Shown here one piece after another: positions 17,314-52,471 of a stretch of 64,000 nt of DNA; positions within the stretch are counted from its first letter, which is position 1, and every line of letters begins with the position of its first letter. Where the stretch lies: positions 1 to 64,000 of the forward strand of contig NZ_JAMCCX010000083.1 in NCBI RefSeq assembly GCF_024706985.1, given 5' to 3'. The stretch is from Alicyclobacillus sp. SP_1. GTDB lineage: Bacteria; Bacillota; Bacilli; Alicyclobacillales; Alicyclobacillaceae. Position numbers and translations under genes: made by a program. The notes beneath the pieces are model-generated. The model worked only from the letters and a program-made list of their open reading frames with translations, had not been told where the DNA came from and searched no databases.

Positions 17314-18645
17314 ATGGCCACTATAGGAGAAAAAATTCGCGAAATTCGGCAACAGCGCGGCTTGACGCAAAGCGAGTTAGCTGGCGGAGTCGTAACTCCC
17401 AGCATGATTAGTCAAATCGAGGCGGACCGCGCTCGACCTTCCTACAACTTACTTACCAGCATTGCAAACCGTCTGGGCATGCCGATAGATTACTTTATGG
17501 ATGAAGTGGACGGACAGCACGTCATGGCTGCCTCCATCACCATCGCGGCTTACCACCTCATCAGTGGACGACCACAACAAGCATTGAACGAATTAGACAA
17601 AATGGACATCCCCGATGTCTACGGGCCGAGTTACAAATCGTATTTGCTGACGGGCGCGCGGGCCAGGAGAGCACTTGGTGAAGTATGGAGCAGCTTGGAG
17701 ACGTTCGAAAAACTGCGCGAAGAAGCGTTCCGAACACAAGACCGGCAACTGCTGTACGAGGTTTGCAAAGAATGTGGCACGACCGAATTCGCCTTAGGCA
17801 ACATCGACGGCGCTATTCACGAATGGAAGAAAGCGCTCAAGTACGGCACACAACTGGTGGAAGACAAAGTGATGTCTCCACTCGATTTTGACCGAGAGTC
17901 GCTCAGTATCTACTTGCAACTTCACGAAGCCGCCAAGGTAAGCCGCTTCCAGACGGAAGACGCAGCCCACTACCTTGAGTCTGCAGTGGCACTCGCGGGT
18001 GGAGTTCAGACATATCAGAACTTGGCGGATGCCCTCATCGCGTCAGCCATCTCTTTTCTCGATTATGACTCTGGAAAAGCGCGGTCGTTTGCAGACCGTG
18101 GACTGTCCTTGATTGAATGCATCAGCCACATGGAACAGGCACTCGTAGCACGTGCCACTGCCAATGAAACGCTGCCGCAAACAGCGAGTGACCCGTGGGT
18201 CGAGATTGCTGCCGCATCGACTACCGTCAGCAGCCTGGTCTTCCTCGAAGCAGAGTATCGGCGCGCAGAGAAAGAGATGGACGCACAAGACTACAATGCC
18301 GCTCGTAACCGCCTGAGTCGGGCGCGAGACATCCTGCACGAATACGAGCTGGAAGTGCCCGACCTGAAGGCCGACTGTTTTGAGTCCTACTGCACACTTC
18401 GCGAGCTGGAAGCCGACTTGTGCCGAGTCACTGGACAACTACAACAGTCTGCCGATATTTTGACAGAACTTCTTCAGATGTCGGAGAGTACCGAGGAAAA
18501 CAAGCGCACCTCGAAGTGGCTGGCGAACATTGTGCTCCTCTATCGCGACCTTGGAGACACCGCAAAGGTGCAAGAATACGGGGAAAAACTGGCACAGAGG
18601 TACGCGCAGGACTTGCCCATTCGGTGGGTTGATACACGAGGGTAA
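17314..18645 (+). CDS. HTH-TPR (RRNPP-like) transcriptional regulator
   Basis: The 443-residue protein starts with a Cro/C1-type helix-turn-helix (residues 4-60): IGEKIREIRQQRGLTQSELAGGVVTPSMISQIEADRARPSYNLL. The remainder is built from helical repeats of TPR type (about 75-430), for example GNIDGAIHEWKKALKYG and AQDYNAARNRLSRARDIL. This HTH-plus-TPR architecture and length are those of RRNPP peptide-responsive regulators (NprR, PlcR, Rgg), but many HTH-TPR proteins have no known peptide. The gene diverges from phoPR and converges on the GGDEF/HD-GYP gene, whose operon begins with a 29-residue exported-peptide-like ORF, a possible ligand source (inference). Confidence 0.85.
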   Translation: MATIGEKIREIRQQRGLTQSELAGGVVTPSMISQIEADRARPSYNLLTSIANRLGMPIDYFMDEVDGQHVMAASITIAAYHLISGRPQQALNELDKMDIPDVYGPSYKSYLLTGARARRALGEVWSSLETFEKLREEAFRTQDRQLLYEVCKECGTTEFALGNIDGAIHEWKKALKYGTQLVEDKVMSPLDFDRESLSIYLQLHEAAKVSRFQTEDAAHYLESAVALAGGVQTYQNLADALIASAISFLDYDSGKARSFADRGLSLIECISHMEQALVARATANETLPQTASDPWVEIAAASTTVSSLVFLEAEYRRAEKEMDAQDYNAARNRLSRARDILHEYELEVPDLKADCFESYCTLRELEADLCRVTGQLQQSADILTELLQMSESTEENKRTSKWLANIVLLYRDLGDTAKVQEYGEKLAQRYAQDLPIRWVDTRG

Positions 18646-18693: not shown

Positions 18694-18729
18694 AAGACAT
18701 GGCCGTTTGTTAAAAAATGGCCGTGTCTT
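18694..18729. terminator. Convergent-gene hairpin
   Basis: AAGACATGGCC pairs with GGCCGTGTCTT (one G-U) around a 14-base A/T-rich loop. It lies between the HTH-TPR stop (18645) and the end of the GGDEF/HD-GYP gene, overlapping that gene's 3' end. No classical T-tail on either strand. Confidence 0.4.
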
Positions 18730-20545
18730 CTTCGAATTCAGAGGGAAGAATGCCCACCTCACGAACGACCTCTTTGAATGGCTCAATCAAGGCCGGATCG
18801 AACTGAGTTCCAGCACAAGCATCGAACTCATCAAAGGCTTCGAGCATGGTGCGGCGGCGTTGATACGGACGACTCGTGGTCATGGCATCGAACGAGTCGA
18901 CAATCGTCATAATGCGCGCTTCGAACGGTATCTTCTCCCCTTTTAACCCATGTGGGTAGCCAAATCCGTCAAAGCGTTCGTGGTGATGGCGAATGAGGTC
19001 AAGGCACGGGCGCAGAGACTTAATCTCGTGAACCATGTAGTACCCTTGCTCCACGTGGTTGCGCATGATGTCCCACTCTTCTTTCGACAGTGGATCCCGC
19101 TTGACCAACACATCAATGGGTGTCTGCAATTTACCGACATCATGGAGGAATGCTCCGATACGAATGTGGCGTTGTACATCCAGACTGAGACCAAGACGCT
19201 CCGCCAGCTTACCAGCATAACGCACGTTTCGCTCGGTATGCCGGTACGTATACCTGTCCCTCGTATTCATCATCTGCATATACAATTCGAGAGTGTTGAT
19301 AATGTCTTCCGACACGTCCAATCCGTCCAGTTCGCGTCGGATATCTTCCACCACCGTGCTGTACACCGCCACGCGGTTGCGCGCGGCAACCTTGATACGA
19401 TAAAGTGCGTCGTCTGCGGCGACCATCAAGTTCTGCTTTTTATCTGCCATTTCCGGATACCGGGCAACTCCGATAGAGGCTGTGATGTGCGTCTTTTTGG
19501 ACTGGTCCGGGCCCGGAAACTCGGCTTCTTCGATGGCTTTGCGAAACGCATTGGCCCGCTCTTCGGCAACCTCTACACTCACATCGGGAATGGTAATAAC
19601 AAATTCTTCACCACTATACCTCGATACCTGTTCCCCTTCGCGCGCGGTGCTCCGCATCAACTTGCCAAGGAACGTCAACGCTTTGTCTCCATGAAGATGT
19701 CCGAAAAGCTCGTTGTATCGCTTAAAATTGTCAATGTCCATAAGGAGCACACTGAACGGCTCCTCAGCCGCAATGCGGTCATCCATCCATGTGTGGATGT
19801 AGCGATGGTTGTGAAGCCGCGTCAACTCATCGGTAATCGCCAAATCCTTGAAGTGCTGTGCCATTTTGAAGTACTCGCGATAGACTCGCGATACGATGAG
19901 TATGAGTGCGGTGAAGAGGATGGTACCGCGAAGGCCGGAACTGTGAATGACAAGCGCGAGCAGATACCCGGTCAGAATGCCTACGCCGTAGACACCGAGC
20001 AACGCACCAGTGAAGATCGATTTTGCTCCGTCGACCAGACCGTCTACACCAAACCTTACATAATAGCTGAGAAATACAAAGAACATATTCGCCGTGAAAT
20101 AGACGACGGCGAAAAAAACAAGAGAAAGTAGGCTTATATGAAAGATTTGGCCGCTACGGTTGAACGTCAGTAGGGACAACTCGTAGGCAATAATGCTCGA
20201 GAGGCAGATTATAGTGTAGCTGTATAAAAAAGACAACCATCTTTTCCCTTTTCGGAAGGACAATATAAATCCTGCAACTATACCCCCAAGCGCAACCGTT
20301 ACCGTAGGATAGCTCAGAATGAAACCAATATAAAACGCTGTTTCCCAAGAAAAGTAGGCTTTTTGACTTATGTCTATCTCGAATGCGGAGGTCAAAGCCA
20401 ATAAGCCTATCAAGGCGTACGTGACCACGTAGCTGTCCATGTCCATCCTAGCAAACCTTACAGTAATGAACGCTATAAGCGTGATTACGCTAGCAACCTT
20501 GAGTGCCGAATAACAATATACTCTCAAGTTTTGAGTCTTAGTCAT
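18710..20545 (-). CDS. Multi-TM GGDEF and HD-GYP protein (c-di-GMP turnover)
   Basis: The ~611-residue protein has six to eight hydrophobic segments over the first ~225 residues. A GGDEF domain follows (about 235-395), with DELTRLHNHRYI, LLMDIDNFKRYNE and the active-site variant SGEEF. The C-terminal HD-GYP domain (about 415-600) is intact: HTERNVRYAG, HDVGKLQTP, NHVEQGY, HHHERFDGFGYPHGLKGEKIP and DSFDAMTTSRPY. It may both make and degrade c-di-GMP, or use GGDEF as a GTP-sensing input. The start is ATG 20545, whose frame overlaps the DUF5317-like gene by eight bases, indicating coupling. It is the third gene of the peptide operon. Confidence 0.9.
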   Translation of the reverse strand: MTKTQNLRVYCYSALKVASVITLIAFITVRFARMDMDSYVVTYALIGLLALTSAFEIDISQKAYFSWETAFYIGFILSYPTVTVALGGIVAGFILSFRKGKRWLSFLYSYTIICLSSIIAYELSLLTFNRSGQIFHISLLSLVFFAVVYFTANMFFVFLSYYVRFGVDGLVDGAKSIFTGALLGVYGVGILTGYLLALVIHSSGLRGTILFTALILIVSRVYREYFKMAQHFKDLAITDELTRLHNHRYIHTWMDDRIAAEEPFSVLLMDIDNFKRYNELFGHLHGDKALTFLGKLMRSTAREGEQVSRYSGEEFVITIPDVSVEVAEERANAFRKAIEEAEFPGPDQSKKTHITASIGVARYPEMADKKQNLMVAADDALYRIKVAARNRVAVYSTVVEDIRRELDGLDVSEDIINTLELYMQMMNTRDRYTYRHTERNVRYAGKLAERLGLSLDVQRHIRIGAFLHDVGKLQTPIDVLVKRDPLSKEEWDIMRNHVEQGYYMVHEIKSLRPCLDLIRHHHERFDGFGYPHGLKGEKIPFEARIMTIVDSFDAMTTSRPYQRRRTMLEAFDEFDACAGTQFDPALIEPFKEVVREVGILPSEFEEDTAIF

Positions 20546-21086
20546 TGTCTGCCACACCAACCATCCCAGTCATCGAATATACGATAAACACAATGATTCC
20601 GATGCTAAAAAGACAGTCCCCAATACTCACAACACTCTGAGGATAAATGTGAATGGGTATAATGTCGCCAAGGAACGGAAGGAATGTGGACTTCGTCATG
20701 ACAACGCTTTTTCCGTAATTTCCTCTGAGAAGCTCCGCGGCAAGAGTTCTATTGACACTGCGCACTGCAGGAAGATACGCTGGCATCCTTAATCCATTCG
20801 CGGACATCTCCAAAAAATTCAGAGCTGTCCCAACGCACGCCATCCATACCCCCGGTTGCTTGATGTTCAGGACACAAAAGAGGATCAGTGTGGTATAGCT
20901 CAAAATCATTAGCACTCCATAAAATGCGTGATTTCCAACGTGAATGGATACAAACTGAAGAACATACGACAGGATAACCATCCAAAGCATTCTTAAGCGG
21001 ATAGTAGAAAGAGAGGCAAATGAACCTCTCCTAAAGAACCCTATGACGAGCCCGCAAATGACGGATAGCCCTTCGAATGCCACCAA
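20538..21086 (-). CDS. DUF5317-like integral membrane protein
   Basis: A 182-residue protein with about five hydrophobic segments (approximately residues 5-18, 32-50, 55-70, 80-95 and 155-175). The internal NFLEMSANGLRMPAYLP and FLGDIIPIHIYPQSVVSIGDCLF segments resemble DUF5317 (N-G-x-x-M-P and L-G-D-x-I-P...S-I-G-D). The family has no assigned function. Translation begins at TTG 21086 or GTG 21083 behind AGGAG. It lies between a 29-residue exported-peptide-like ORF and the overlapping GGDEF/HD-GYP gene. A role in peptide processing, export or sensing is attractive but unproven. Confidence 0.75.
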   Translation of the reverse strand: MVAFEGLSVICGLVIGFFRRGSFASLSTIRLRMLWMVILSYVLQFVSIHVGNHAFYGVLMILSYTTLILFCVLNIKQPGVWMACVGTALNFLEMSANGLRMPAYLPAVRSVNRTLAAELLRGNYGKSVVMTKSTFLPFLGDIIPIHIYPQSVVSIGDCLFSIGIIVFIVYSMTGMVGVADND

Positions 21087-21129
21087 AGCACTCTCCTAGC
21101 CTGTTTAGTGTATGACACAATCTTAAATA

Positions 21130-21158
21130 CGAAAAGATTGGACCGGCAGCACCGGTCC
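21130..21158 (-). terminator. Hairpin between the peptide ORF and the DUF5317-like gene
   Basis: GGACCGG-TGCTG-CCGGTCC on the minus strand, followed by AATCTTTTCG. It begins 11 bases after the peptide stop and ends 44 bases before the next start. It could act as a partial intrinsic terminator, giving more peptide than membrane protein. Confidence 0.6.
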
Positions 21159-21169
21159 GGGTACATAGA

Positions 21170-21259
21170 TTAAAACTTAACTCCGACACCAGCCTGTGCT
21201 GCAATCGTGAAAAGAACAAGTGCGCCTAAAACTGCTACTGCTTTAACGCGTGGTGACAT
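21170..21259 (-). CDS. 29-residue putative exported peptide
   Basis: ATG 21259 is preceded by GAGGAGG with an ideal spacer, and the frame ends TAA at 21170. The product has a basic N-terminus (Arg4, Lys6), a hydrophobic core of about 14 residues (7-20), then an AQA tripeptide at 21-23 followed by GVGVKF. This looks like a signal peptide with an A-x-A signal peptidase I site that would release a hexapeptide, though it could also remain as a single-TM peptide. It has a ~150-base structured leader and is first in the operon with the DUF5317-like and GGDEF/HD-GYP genes. It is not a recognised family; the ORF itself is well supported by its ribosome site and position. Confidence 0.6.
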   Translation of the reverse strand: MSPRVKAVAVLGALVLFTIAAQAGVGVKF

Positions 21260-21273
21260 CGTGGGTTCCTCCT

Positions 21274-21302
21274 CAGATAGGTCCAAAATCAGGACCAATC
21301 TG
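21274..21302 (-). promoter_or_regulatory. Leader hairpin abutting the peptide ribosome-binding site
   Basis: CAGAT-A-GGTCC, a 7-base loop, then GGACC-A-ATCTG: ten pairs with one A/A (T/T on the transcript) mismatch. The 3' side of the stem touches the GAGGAGG Shine-Dalgarno of the 29-residue ORF, so folding or ligand binding could modulate its translation. Confidence 0.55.
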
Positions 21303-21415
21303 AAGTGCTTGAGCTACTGGTGCGACAGAAGAGTTGCCCGACTTTTGCTAGCCTCGCAAAATGCCGAGTGCCGTAAATGCGATGGTTACTATAGGAGTTA
21401 CACCCCGATGAGAGC

Positions 21416-21421
21416 ATTATA
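21416..21421 (-). promoter_or_regulatory. -10 element of the peptide operon
   Basis: Perfect TATAAT on the minus strand in an AT-rich stretch, about 155 bases upstream of the peptide ATG. No good -35 hexamer is seen at 16-18 bases, so the promoter may need an activator. Confidence 0.45.
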
Positions 21422-21834: not shown

Positions 21835-22284
21835 TCATCTCGATGGAGAGTCCAAAAATGCCGAGGTGATGGCTTGAGGAGTACCGGGCAATCGCAAGTC
21901 GTAGATGCATCCGATGGCGGGCTCCGCGAAGCAGACGTTGCGGATGACTTCGAGTACTTCGTCTTCACTCGGCACGCGGCAATAGTCGAGGCCCTCGTTC
22001 TTGACTTGAAGGAGACGTACAATGTCTTCCGTTCCGTCGGTCGATCCGGTATCGACGACGACAATCCGACACTCTCTCCGATGCAAGAGGTTGCTGCCGA
22101 GTATCCAGCGAATAGACCCTTCAATCGTCTCACAGGCATTCTCCACCAACAAAAGGTAGACGACTGGTTCTGGATTGCCGTAAGCCGCCACATGTCGACG
22201 TCTCTGATAAGCGCGCACAGATTGCACAACGAGTGTACCAGCACCGTACATCGCGAGTATCCAATAGAGGAGAATCCACCACAT
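21835..22284 (-). CDS. Membrane-anchored glycosyltransferase-like mini-protein
   Basis: From ATG 22284 (GGGGGTGA upstream) the product has 149 residues: one N-terminal membrane helix (MWWILLYWILAMYGAGTLVV), a basic stop-transfer region, then a ~100-residue piece resembling the first half of a family 2 glycosyltransferase, with VVVDTGSTDGTEDIVRLL. The DxD metal motif and acceptor half are absent, so catalytic transfer is unlikely. It may be a regulatory or degenerate protein. It lies downstream of metK beyond that gene's terminator. Confidence 0.7.
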   Translation of the reverse strand: MWWILLYWILAMYGAGTLVVQSVRAYQRRRHVAAYGNPEPVVYLLLVENACETIEGSIRWILGSNLLHRRECRIVVVDTGSTDGTEDIVRLLQVKNEGLDYCRVPSEDEVLEVIRNVCFAEPAIGCIYDLRLPGTPQAITSAFLDSPSR

Positions 22285-22320
22285 CCCCCTCACCCCCTTA
22301 CTTCCAACATATGCGAGGGC

Positions 22321-22357
22321 AAAAAAAAGCGGCACCGATGGTGAAGCAATCGGTGCC
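22321..22357 (-). terminator. Intrinsic terminator of metK
   Basis: GGCACCGAT and ATCGGTGCC flank a 9-base loop, followed by GCTTTTTTTT on the minus strand, ~110 bases beyond the metK stop. Confidence 0.88.
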
Positions 22358-22468
22358 AAGAGTATGGGGTAAGGGTAATGCTATATCATACGTAGCGCGG
22401 TCGCTGGTTCTGTCCGTCGAGCGACGATTTTTCTCTTTCGACCGTCAGACAAGTCGCCGAGCCTAACT

Positions 22469-51283: not shown

Positions 51284-52303
51284 TCACATGCCGACATACC
51301 GTGCATACAAACTGCGAGCCTTGGCACTGTCGTCGACGCCATGAATCAGCGCTCGTCCGTCCGCAAACAAGGTCAATTGCACGTCTCCGAAGTCGCAGCG
51401 GAGCAAATGGGCATTGTGACGCACTTGCCCAAGCCTTGACAACCGTTCTGCCATCGCTTCCAAAGAAACTTGCAAACTACTCTCTGGTCGTACCTGAATC
51501 GTCCGGCGGCCACAAAGAGACACCGTCAGCCCGTCGGTTCGTGCCTCCAGTGACTGAAACTGCCGGAGCTGACAACACGGGCAATCCGTCTTTGGCGGGG
51601 ACAGTTGCACAGACCGAAATTCGTTGTCCCACACGTTGACATGCATCAGAGCATTGCTGAGGGCAGCCAAGTTCCCCGTGAGATACTTCAAAATCTCTGC
51701 CACTTGCAAGGATGCGATGATGGCTACGACCGGTGCAATGACGCCGACCGTGTCACAAGTGTCGTGCCCTCCAACATCTCCATCGCTGCCAAACAAGCAC
51801 GTCAGGCAAGCGGTTTGTAAAGGGCGAAAAAACGCGGTGGTCCCATAAGAACTGACGGCTCCGCCGTACGACCAAGGAATACCGTATTGAACTGCAACGT
51901 CATTCATCAGATAACGCACTTGGAAGTTATCCGTTCCATCGACAATCACGTCGACATCCGCCAACCACTTCTTTGCATTGCGCCATGTCAAATCTTCGAT
52001 GACAGCTTCAATCTGCACGTCGCGATTCGCAGCTTGTAGCTTTTGGGCAGCGGCTTCCGCCTTCGCTCGACCCAGCTCGGCATCTTCTTCATCGTAGAGC
52101 GTTTGCCGCTGCAAGTTAGACGGCTCGATAATATCGCGATCGACCAGGCGCAAAAACCCAACTCCCGCCCGCACCAATTGCGTTGCCAGCACCGTTCCCA
52201 ACGCACCCATCCCAACGATGACAACCCGTGCTGCCGCTAATCGCTGCTGGCCTTCACGGCCAATCGGCCGAAACAACACTTGCCGGGAATATCTATCGTC
52301 CAT
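51284..52303 (-). CDS. ThiF/MoeB-family adenylyltransferase
   Basis: An E1-like enzyme activating a ThiS or MoaD sulfur-carrier C-terminus. The 339-residue product has DRYSRQVLF, the nucleotide loop VVIVGMGALGTVLATQLVRAGVG (about 26-48), the conserved DRDIIEPSNLQRQTLY, and the catalytic aspartate stretch VDVIVDGTDNFQVRYLMND. Zinc-binding CLTC (near residue 172) and CPCC (near 242) pairs are intact. A C-terminal ~95-residue domain extends it. ATG 52303, six bases after GGGGGAC. Neither thiS nor moaD adjoins it. Confidence 0.9.
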   Translation of the reverse strand: MDDRYSRQVLFRPIGREGQQRLAAARVVIVGMGALGTVLATQLVRAGVGFLRLVDRDIIEPSNLQRQTLYDEEDAELGRAKAEAAAQKLQAANRDVQIEAVIEDLTWRNAKKWLADVDVIVDGTDNFQVRYLMNDVAVQYGIPWSYGGAVSSYGTTAFFRPLQTACLTCLFGSDGDVGGHDTCDTVGVIAPVVAIIASLQVAEILKYLTGNLAALSNALMHVNVWDNEFRSVQLSPPKTDCPCCQLRQFQSLEARTDGLTVSLCGRRTIQVRPESSLQVSLEAMAERLSRLGQVRHNAHLLRCDFGDVQLTLFADGRALIHGVDDSAKARSLYARYVGM

Positions 52304-52431
52304 CCATAGTCCCCCACAATCCATCATCGATAAAGAACTCTACTACTGATACCACGCCCACGGAGGGCTATGCAACAGCGAGTCTATGGGTGTGCACGAG
52401 TTGACCGAATAACCAGCCATCCGCAGAGCAC

Positions 52432-52471
52432 AAAAAACGCCTCTTCGAGCGCACTTACCGCTTGAAGAGGC
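52432..52471 (-). terminator. Intrinsic terminator of the secreted protein gene
   Basis: GCCTCTTC and GAAGAGGC pair around a 17-base loop, followed by GTTTTTTG on the minus strand; 26 bases past the stop at 52497. Confidence 0.85.

Follow-up and report, generated by a model that had tools for sequence, protein, structure and literature searches.

A small-peptide, DUF5317 and c-di-GMP enzyme operon of Alicyclobacillus that looks like an undescribed bacterial cell-to-cell signaling system

The window analyzed here is a stretch of 64,000 nucleotides (nt) from Alicyclobacillus sp. SP_1 (contig NZ_JAMCCX010000083.1, positions 1 to 64,000). Its minus strand carries, in this order, a 29-residue open reading frame (ORF), a gene for a membrane protein of the DUF5317 family, and a gene for a membrane-bound GGDEF/HD-GYP enzyme, the frames of the latter two overlapping in the ORF list of the window. 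An earlier note, made from the letters alone, had proposed these genes as a candidate signaling operon based on cyclic di-GMP (c-di-GMP). Coordinates and Pfam matches confirm the three ORFs, their strand, order and overlap, and the reading as a signaling operon is supported. The operon is probably a peptide-pheromone (quorum-sensing-like) module with swappable outputs, the output here being c-di-GMP turnover.

The small ORF (MSPRVKAVAVLGALVLFTIAAQAGVGVKF, 21170..21259), a candidate pheromone precursor, runs from an ATG at 21259 to a stop at 21170-21172 and has a good ribosome site, GAGGAGG, ahead of it at 21268-21274. Its leader (MSPRVKAVAVLGALVLFTIAAQA, 21191..21259) has a basic N-terminus, a hydrophobic core and an A-x-A end. 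The variable tail, GVGVKF (21173..21190), would be the mature signal, with a putative cleavage site at its border with the leader. The DUF5317 gene (20538..21086) encodes a membrane protein of 182 residues, in line with the earlier description, and matches PF17248 with E 1.4e-29 and 103.5 bits against a curated cut-off of 25, which places it in the family. The third gene (18710..20545, about 611 residues from its ATG) encodes the candidate receptor and c-di-GMP enzyme. As had been read before, its GGDEF (E 5e-37) and HD_5/HD-GYP (E 8e-37) Pfam matches both lie behind a membrane N-terminus. This N-terminus is the sensor domain (19841..20545), which is followed by the GGDEF domain (19373..19840; Pfam and the motif SGEEF) and the HD-GYP domain (18788..19285; Pfam, residues 426-591 of 616), whose translation shows the HD and HH...GYP motifs. 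The longest receptor frame starts at TTG 20560 (616 residues) and overlaps the DUF5317 gene by 23 nt. From ATG 20545 the overlap is 8 nt, the same as in the related loci L053 and L056, and this ATG is the likelier start.

Small ORFs beside DUF5317 genes were collected with a filter for 22-46 residues, a hydrophobic core, a net basic N-terminus and a ribosome-site score (locus L121 is not in the analysis). In the host family, DUF5317 occurs in 29 of 41 genomes, and a small ORF of the same plan adjoins it in 31 of 33 loci, the two misses (L062 and L063) being contig-edge fragments. One set of 19 host-family loci, termed A-type, has peptides of the form MSxKVKaxxifGAxVLFSxAAQA followed by a variable tail, and the partner is a GGDEF/HD-GYP protein wherever it is complete (one is split and one cut). 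Peptides of a second set (11 loci) end in PW motifs and have histidine kinases as partners, 5 recognized by Pfam and 6 by motif only, and the small ORF of L033 is of a divergent third kind. A profile built from 18 A-type small ORFs gave a single strong match, at E 2.6e-10 or lower, in each of 20 of the 41 family genomes; 19 of these adjoin DUF5317, and the 20th (genome G035) stops exactly at a contig end. Two further profile matches, with E 0.03 (G029) and 0.06 (G020), are located elsewhere and look like noise.

Similar arrangements are found well beyond the host family. Five sister-family genomes have a peptide such as MKKKLIAAATVVALVLVASA with the tail DSYVI, and HD-GYP partners where these are readable; two sister-family loci that have no peptide are both cut at contig ends. 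Among the named loci (79 of 80 examined), a small ORF passes the filter in 67 of 70 Bacilli-like ones, and the remaining three (L137, L139 and L147, the last cut after its first codons) have a peptide that was found by eye. The small ORF is found in 0 of 9 other named loci, one of which (L194) has no upstream DNA. Phylum-wide, 10 of 41 loci have a filter-passing peptide (6 of 6 in the same class, 4 of 35 in other classes). The four peptides from other classes follow MKKxFFWLTVAxMxLAxxA plus (K/R)xPW(H/R), and L089 has a fifth of this leader kind, slightly below the hydrophobicity limit of the filter. In the genus of G434, which we read as Paenibacillus, DUF5317 is present in 75 of 75 genomes and the peptide in all 40 loci fetched. 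Genera with the module are Alicyclobacillus, Geobacillus, Anoxybacillus, Paenibacillus, Cohnella and Bacillus, and a few genomes from other classes of the phylum carry it as well. The small ORF is genuine and more than a chance frame. The earlier note had named absence of co-occurrence between such ORFs, DUF5317 and GGDEF/HD-GYP as grounds for dropping its proposal, and co-occurrence is found from Alicyclobacillus through Bacillus, with GGDEF/HD-GYP, HD-GYP alone or a kinase as the partner.

Peptide genes may also stand in tandem, with three copies in L272 and two in L158, L162, L163, L165, L167, L172, L182, L184 and L185. Two genomes, G017 and G018 (L042, L043, L045 and L046), have two modules each, one with a kinase and one with a c-di-GMP receptor. 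In L139 (Parageobacillus caldoxylosilyticus), about 240 bases lie between DUF5317 and the peptide gene; by eye, the insert (about 15-245 bases past the DUF5317 stop) resembled a piece of a group II intron, and Rfam gave no match there or in the window. Small, cationic, hydrophobic, variable and at times tandem peptides could also be antimicrobial or toxic, with DUF5317 or the sensor serving for immunity or detection. The mature part of only 4-15 residues speaks against this, as do the signaling outputs on the partner genes in nearly all complete cases and the absence of a recurring transporter in 12 neighborhoods read by eye, for which no family search was made. An antimicrobial function is very improbable.

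Leader and tail differ strongly in conservation. Across 18 A-type peptides, M1, K6, G12, A13, A20, A21 and A23 are invariant. The ratio of nonsynonymous to synonymous changes (dN/dS) was taken from 25 independent pairs of relatives with leaders at least 80% identical. It is 0.08 in the leader and 0.41 in the tail, with nonsynonymous changes at 34 of 1339 sites in the leader but 65 of 314 in the tail (p=4e-26). This set supersedes one over mixed distant peptide types (leader 0.36, tail 0.46). The 29-residue ORF, whose lack of conservation would have told against the earlier proposal, keeps its frame and its leader. Synonymous changes are raised in the tail too (p=0.004), so the pattern points to segments that have been replaced and not to clean positive selection. 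We placed the leader/tail border at conserved motifs, which makes leader conservation in part a product of the rule. However, DNA alignments that do not use this border rule also break at the junction in L112/L113, L232/L241 and L135/L136. In L112/L113, 60 upstream bases and all 60 leader bases are identical, the tail then changes from DSYVI to EVVLV, and DNA identity resumes about 60 bases beyond the tail change. Tails comprise the last 4-15 residues of the small ORFs. A short precursor with a conserved leader and a variable C-terminal part, as expected of peptide quorum sensing, is what these loci encode.

The strongest evidence for the signaling reading is that tail and sensor co-vary in the relatives. 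The main pair test used 101 receptors with HD-GYP and a recognized leader, compared in pairs with outputs at least 80% identical. Receptors truncated by a contig end were dropped, as were those lacking an HD motif past residue 400, which places the kinase and HD-GYP-only loci outside the test. L280 and L284 were lost to it because the DUF5317 pattern missed both, and L118-L132, repeats of genomes already in the set, were left out of the pair tests and of dN/dS. The median output-minus-sensor identity was 0.012 in 19 independent same-tail pairs (same-tail pairs being mostly from Paenibacillus) and 0.179 in 16 independent different-tail pairs (Mann-Whitney p=3e-7, 35 pairs). Permutation of tails over 258 pairs, in which relatedness is not kept, gave p=0.0005. 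DUF5317 identity was not significantly associated with tail change, with p=0.054 in the 35 independent pairs and p=0.88 in all pairs. Over 455 non-independent pairs, rank correlation with tail change was -0.33 for the sensor (p=9e-13) and -0.07 for the leader (p=0.14).

Closely related pairs illustrate the effect. In six independent different-tail pairs with output identity of at least 0.95, leaders are 92-100% and outputs 95-100% identical and sensors 55-76%, while DUF5317 is 95-98% identical apart from L035/L037 (66%). Over all pairs at this output identity, mean sensor identity is 0.97 with the same tail (31 pairs) and 0.68 with different tails (9 pairs). Even a one-residue tail change, FSLG to FALG, goes with a sensor identity of 0.76 at an output identity of 0.99. 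The DNA of L152/L153 is a mosaic, with identities of 98% in DUF5317, 99% in the leader, 71% in the tail, 66% in the spacer, 64% in the sensor and 96% in the output, whereas the same-tail control L153/L154 is 95-97% identical throughout. The corresponding DNA values for L035/L037 are 95% (leader), 57% (tail), 60% (DUF5317), 65% (sensor) and 94% (output). In Alicyclobacillus, DUF5317 lies between tail and sensor and hence within the changed stretch. Signal and sensor co-vary in these relatives as do the pherotypes of peptide quorum sensing. Judged from sequence, the pattern is the pherotype pattern, with the sensor as the putative receptor, and the co-variation is our reason for assigning it a receptor role and binding of the tail.

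Two other accounts of the small ORF bear on this pattern. First, it may encode a membrane-anchored regulatory subunit, of which MgrB and SafA are examples, that is never released and whose outer tail touches the sensor of the same cell. The single hydrophobic helix with its short outer tail and the strongly conserved core residues of the leader fit such a subunit, and direct contact would likewise give co-variation with the sensor. However, tail and sensor have changed repeatedly at 91-98% output DNA identity, even in the one-residue FSLG/FALG case. This suggests selection for diversity, which private signaling accounts for, unlike a fixed subunit; a released signal also fits the A-x-A end and the tandem copies. 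We consider an anchored subunit unlikely. Second, the leader alone may matter, for example as a DUF5317 cofactor, with a neutral tail and a sensor that diverges independently. The tail dN/dS and the raised synonymous changes are compatible with this, but free drift would not couple tail and sensor changes at fixed output identity. Moreover, motifs recur in the tails, namely PW in kinase-adjacent and other-class tails and (F/Y)(K/R) in many Bacilli tails. The chance that the tail is neutral is slighter still than that of an antimicrobial peptide.

Profile comparisons show the sensors of kinase, GGDEF/HD-GYP and HD-GYP receptors to be homologous. The wider Bacilli sensor set matched the kinase sensors at 96% probability, the HD-GYP receptors of other classes at 97.6% and those of the sister family at 85%; Alicyclobacillus sensors compared directly with kinase sensors reached only 27%. 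Against DUF5317 and LspA, the sensor sets remained below 1% throughout. An AlphaFold2 model of the window sensor (pLDDT 92.4) had S-components of energy-coupling factor (ECF) transporters as its best Foldseek matches. With a second aligner, VIA, S-components and ECF subunits of the CbiM/NikM type filled the top 21 rows (Z 8.3-13.5), ahead of a row at 5.3, although Z values below about 13 can be misleading for helical bundles. An ECF S-component fold, known from proteins that take up vitamins and metals, is predicted for the sensor. Behind it, the GGDEF motif reads GGEEF in 85 of the 101 receptors, SGEEF in 11 and NGDEF in 1, none being found in 4, and HH...GYP is present in 98. The catalytic motifs are kept, and the protein appears from them to be a bifunctional GGDEF/HD-GYP enzyme. 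The receptor gene of L043/L125 (Alicyclobacillus pomorum) is in two frames of 160 and 394 residues and is possibly broken. In the window genome, the only other protein with a sensor-type membrane domain is on contig C50 (L226, near 51903-52442), where two GGDEF matches follow the domain, and the genome has 13 GGDEF matches in total. Neither the sensor type nor c-di-GMP turnover is therefore confined to the module.

Receptors of the 5TMR type have been described with an S-component fold and kinase or GGDEF outputs (PMC11109136, 2024). The module likewise has an S-component-like membrane domain fused to kinase, GGDEF or other outputs. It differs in that, at E 0.01, PF07694 (5TMR/LytS) matches neither the window receptor nor any of 8 relatives. 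The main text of that paper does not mention HD-GYP, quorum or pheromone, and "peptide", which it uses 11 times, stands in the passages shown for signal peptide, antimicrobial peptides or references (PMC11109136).

The DUF5317 model (AlphaFold2, pLDDT 93.5) has five long helices and a small beta region. N97, M101, P102, D141, S154, G156 and D157 are invariant in 71 DUF5317 sequences, and no Cys or His is. By the positive-inside rule, the loop after helix 1 would be inside and the invariant residues would face outward, on the side where the tail would emerge. In sequence and model, D141 and D157 recall the Asp pair of LspA (spaced by about 16-19 residues, with the second Asp where the last helix begins). 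Homology with LspA was set aside at 0.35% probability against one LspA sequence and 6% against 27, and is kept as a possibility. The best comparison for DUF5317, a weak match, was hhalign against LspA (PF01252), with 6% probability and E 0.0058 over 36 columns. LspA is absent among the PDB matches listed by Foldseek and VIA, the fold has no clear match (Foldseek reached E 1.7 at best, and VIA Z 7.0 across 53 residues), and the profile has no PDB relative at E 10. DUF5317 has no match in the window genome outside the window and none in phages (query: the window protein), and three weak matches in plasmids (query: the L164 protein). The leader is kept through the pherotype changes, as is DUF5317 where it lies outside the changed stretch, and DUF5317 thus most likely acts on the leader, in its processing or export. 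In other classes, DUF5317 genes that have no peptide lie just before a gene that by eye resembles secA (L075, L077, L086, L092, L095, L098, L099, L103, L105, L108 and L116).

Downstream of the peptide gene, a GC hairpin with a T-rich tail (21140..21158, minus strand) is a possible partial terminator. In the window it is weak (2 terminator-like sites in 1.2 kb against 1.3 expected from shuffles), and the fold of the whole stretch between the peptide and DUF5317 genes is not unusual (z -1.06). In the relatives, 51 of 98 loci have a hairpin and T tract 3' of the peptide gene, compared with 8 of 294 shuffles, and transcription of the peptide may therefore exceed that of the genes that follow. A search of the window for a regulated promoter gave consensus matches at chance level only. 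Upstream of the operon, a 174-residue ORF (21835-22359) has a weak glycosyltransferase 2 match, and ORFs that resemble it by eye lie upstream in L032, L038, L041 and L053.

An XRE regulator of 443 residues (17314-18645, plus strand; HTH_3 E 1.8e-12) is convergent with the operon at a distance of 64 nt. SHP/Rgg and RRNPP pheromones derive from precursors of 20-45 residues whose hydrophobic leader precedes a short C-terminal signal, and are imported and then read by cytoplasmic regulators, which in RRNPP are HTH-TPR receptors. The tail could be imported and read by the XRE neighbor as an RRNPP-like pair, with the GGDEF/HD-GYP gene incidental. The tail length would suit RRNPP peptides, and a similar ORF has the same position in L032, L045 and L048. 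However, these are 3 of the 9 A-type loci listed, the ORF not being seen there in L034, L037, L038, L041, L053 and L056, and the TPR match of the regulator (E 0.009) is below the curated cut-off. In the module it is a membrane sensor that co-varies with the tail, which is a difference from SHP and RRNPP systems; the XRE gene itself lies outside the co-variation test. Membership in RRNPP through this neighbor was rejected, and an XRE reader of the tail is highly improbable.

The module would function like Agr or ComQXPA, yet it is a member of neither, nor of RRNPP. The Agr system comprises AgrB, AgrD, AgrC and AgrA, with a membrane protease of the AgrB family (PF04647) and a cyclic (thio)lactone peptide that has a conserved Cys or Ser. 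The parallel with Agr drawn in the earlier note stands as an analogy: one operon has a small precursor, a membrane protein of about 190 residues and a sensor with multiple transmembrane segments, the signal is variable, and one clade of the module has a histidine-kinase output. As homology it fails: PF17248 is the sole Pfam family to match the DUF5317 protein at E 0.01, and neither Cys nor His is invariant among the 71 DUF5317 sequences. The module tails share no Cys or Ser, and GVGVKF has neither. Many module outputs are c-di-GMP enzymes and the sensor has a predicted S-component fold, in which the module also differs from Agr. The diffusible signal factor (DSF) system RpfC/RpfG likewise couples a cell-cell signal to an HD-GYP enzyme, but there a separate kinase senses the ligand, a fatty acid. 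The window ORF has no Pfam match at E 0.01, ComX (PF05952) included, and at E 1 the only matches of seven representative small ORFs were to SPC12 and DUF945, both at chance level. The module partner is DUF5317 and not a ComQ transferase, for which no search was made, and its kinases are HisKA (PF00512) rather than PF07730. In ComQXPA of Bacillus subtilis, the ComX C-terminus is the most variable region, ComP is highly variable in its N-terminal membrane part, and these polymorphisms give rise to pherotypes (PMC4008528). In the module, the pre-peptide likewise varies at its C-terminal end and the receptor in its N-terminal membrane domain, although module precursors have 24-43 residues (within the 22-46 filter) against 52-73 (PMC4008528). 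The agr locus of Clostridium difficile has been reported to affect c-di-GMP genes via transcription, a route different from that of the module (PMC3754575). In agreement with the earlier note, no description of the module was recognized in the open-access library searched, in which no paper mentions DUF5317.

Several observations weigh against a pheromone module. The window has no close relative, and the pherotype signature comes from other loci, no tested pair including the window. DUF5317 divergence also correlates with tail change over the 455 pairs (rho -0.26, p=2e-8), which the position of DUF5317 inside the changed Alicyclobacillus stretch may partly explain. None of the Foldseek matches of the sensor is below E 0.001, tails such as TIA/PWPWI and VVQ/SPWF (slash at the border) suit an A-x-A cut poorly, and the hydrophobic cores of the leaders are more conserved than a generic signal peptide requires. 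DUF5317 has no filter-passing small ORF in 31 of 35 other-class loci; it has, or had, another role, and its role here may be borrowed. As it is also found without small ORF or sensor, the three genes are not obligate partners. DUF5317 occurs in 16 of 61 genomes of another Bacilli family, so the module is patchy.

For the pheromone module, we propose the following mechanism. The 29-residue precursor would insert through its leader with the N-terminus inside and the C-terminus outside. The leader would be cut after AAQA, which would free a short tail (about GVGVKF) outside the cell, and DUF5317 most likely helps to cut, export or hold the precursor. The tail would then bind the membrane sensor, as the co-variation suggests, and the bound sensor would set the balance between c-di-GMP synthesis (GGDEF) and breakdown (HD-GYP) within one polypeptide. 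In related loci, the same peptide, DUF5317 and sensor input would act on a histidine kinase or on HD-GYP alone. Cleavage, secretion, binding, the DUF5317 function and the c-di-GMP effect are all inferred. A broader proposal, which we put forward tentatively and would not expect to hold in every part, is a new class of peptide quorum sensing, Bacilli-wide and in some other classes. DUF5317 would be its LspA-like aspartyl peptidase or exporter, the signal would be a tail of 4-15 residues, and the receptors would have the S-component fold. The c-di-GMP output would lie in the receptor, requiring no phosphorelay, and cassettes of tail plus sensor would recombine as pherotypes.

The module looks like an undescribed bacterial cell-to-cell signaling system. 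If this is true, one receptor molecule would link peptide quorum sensing with the control of motility and biofilm by c-di-GMP, DUF5317 would gain a function, and receptors with the S-component fold would gain a ligand class. Natural pherotype pairs, such as L152/L153 and L232/L241 of Paenibacillus, would make receptor specificity directly testable. Among the organisms concerned, Paenibacillus, Geobacillus and Alicyclobacillus are relevant to agriculture, industry and food spoilage.

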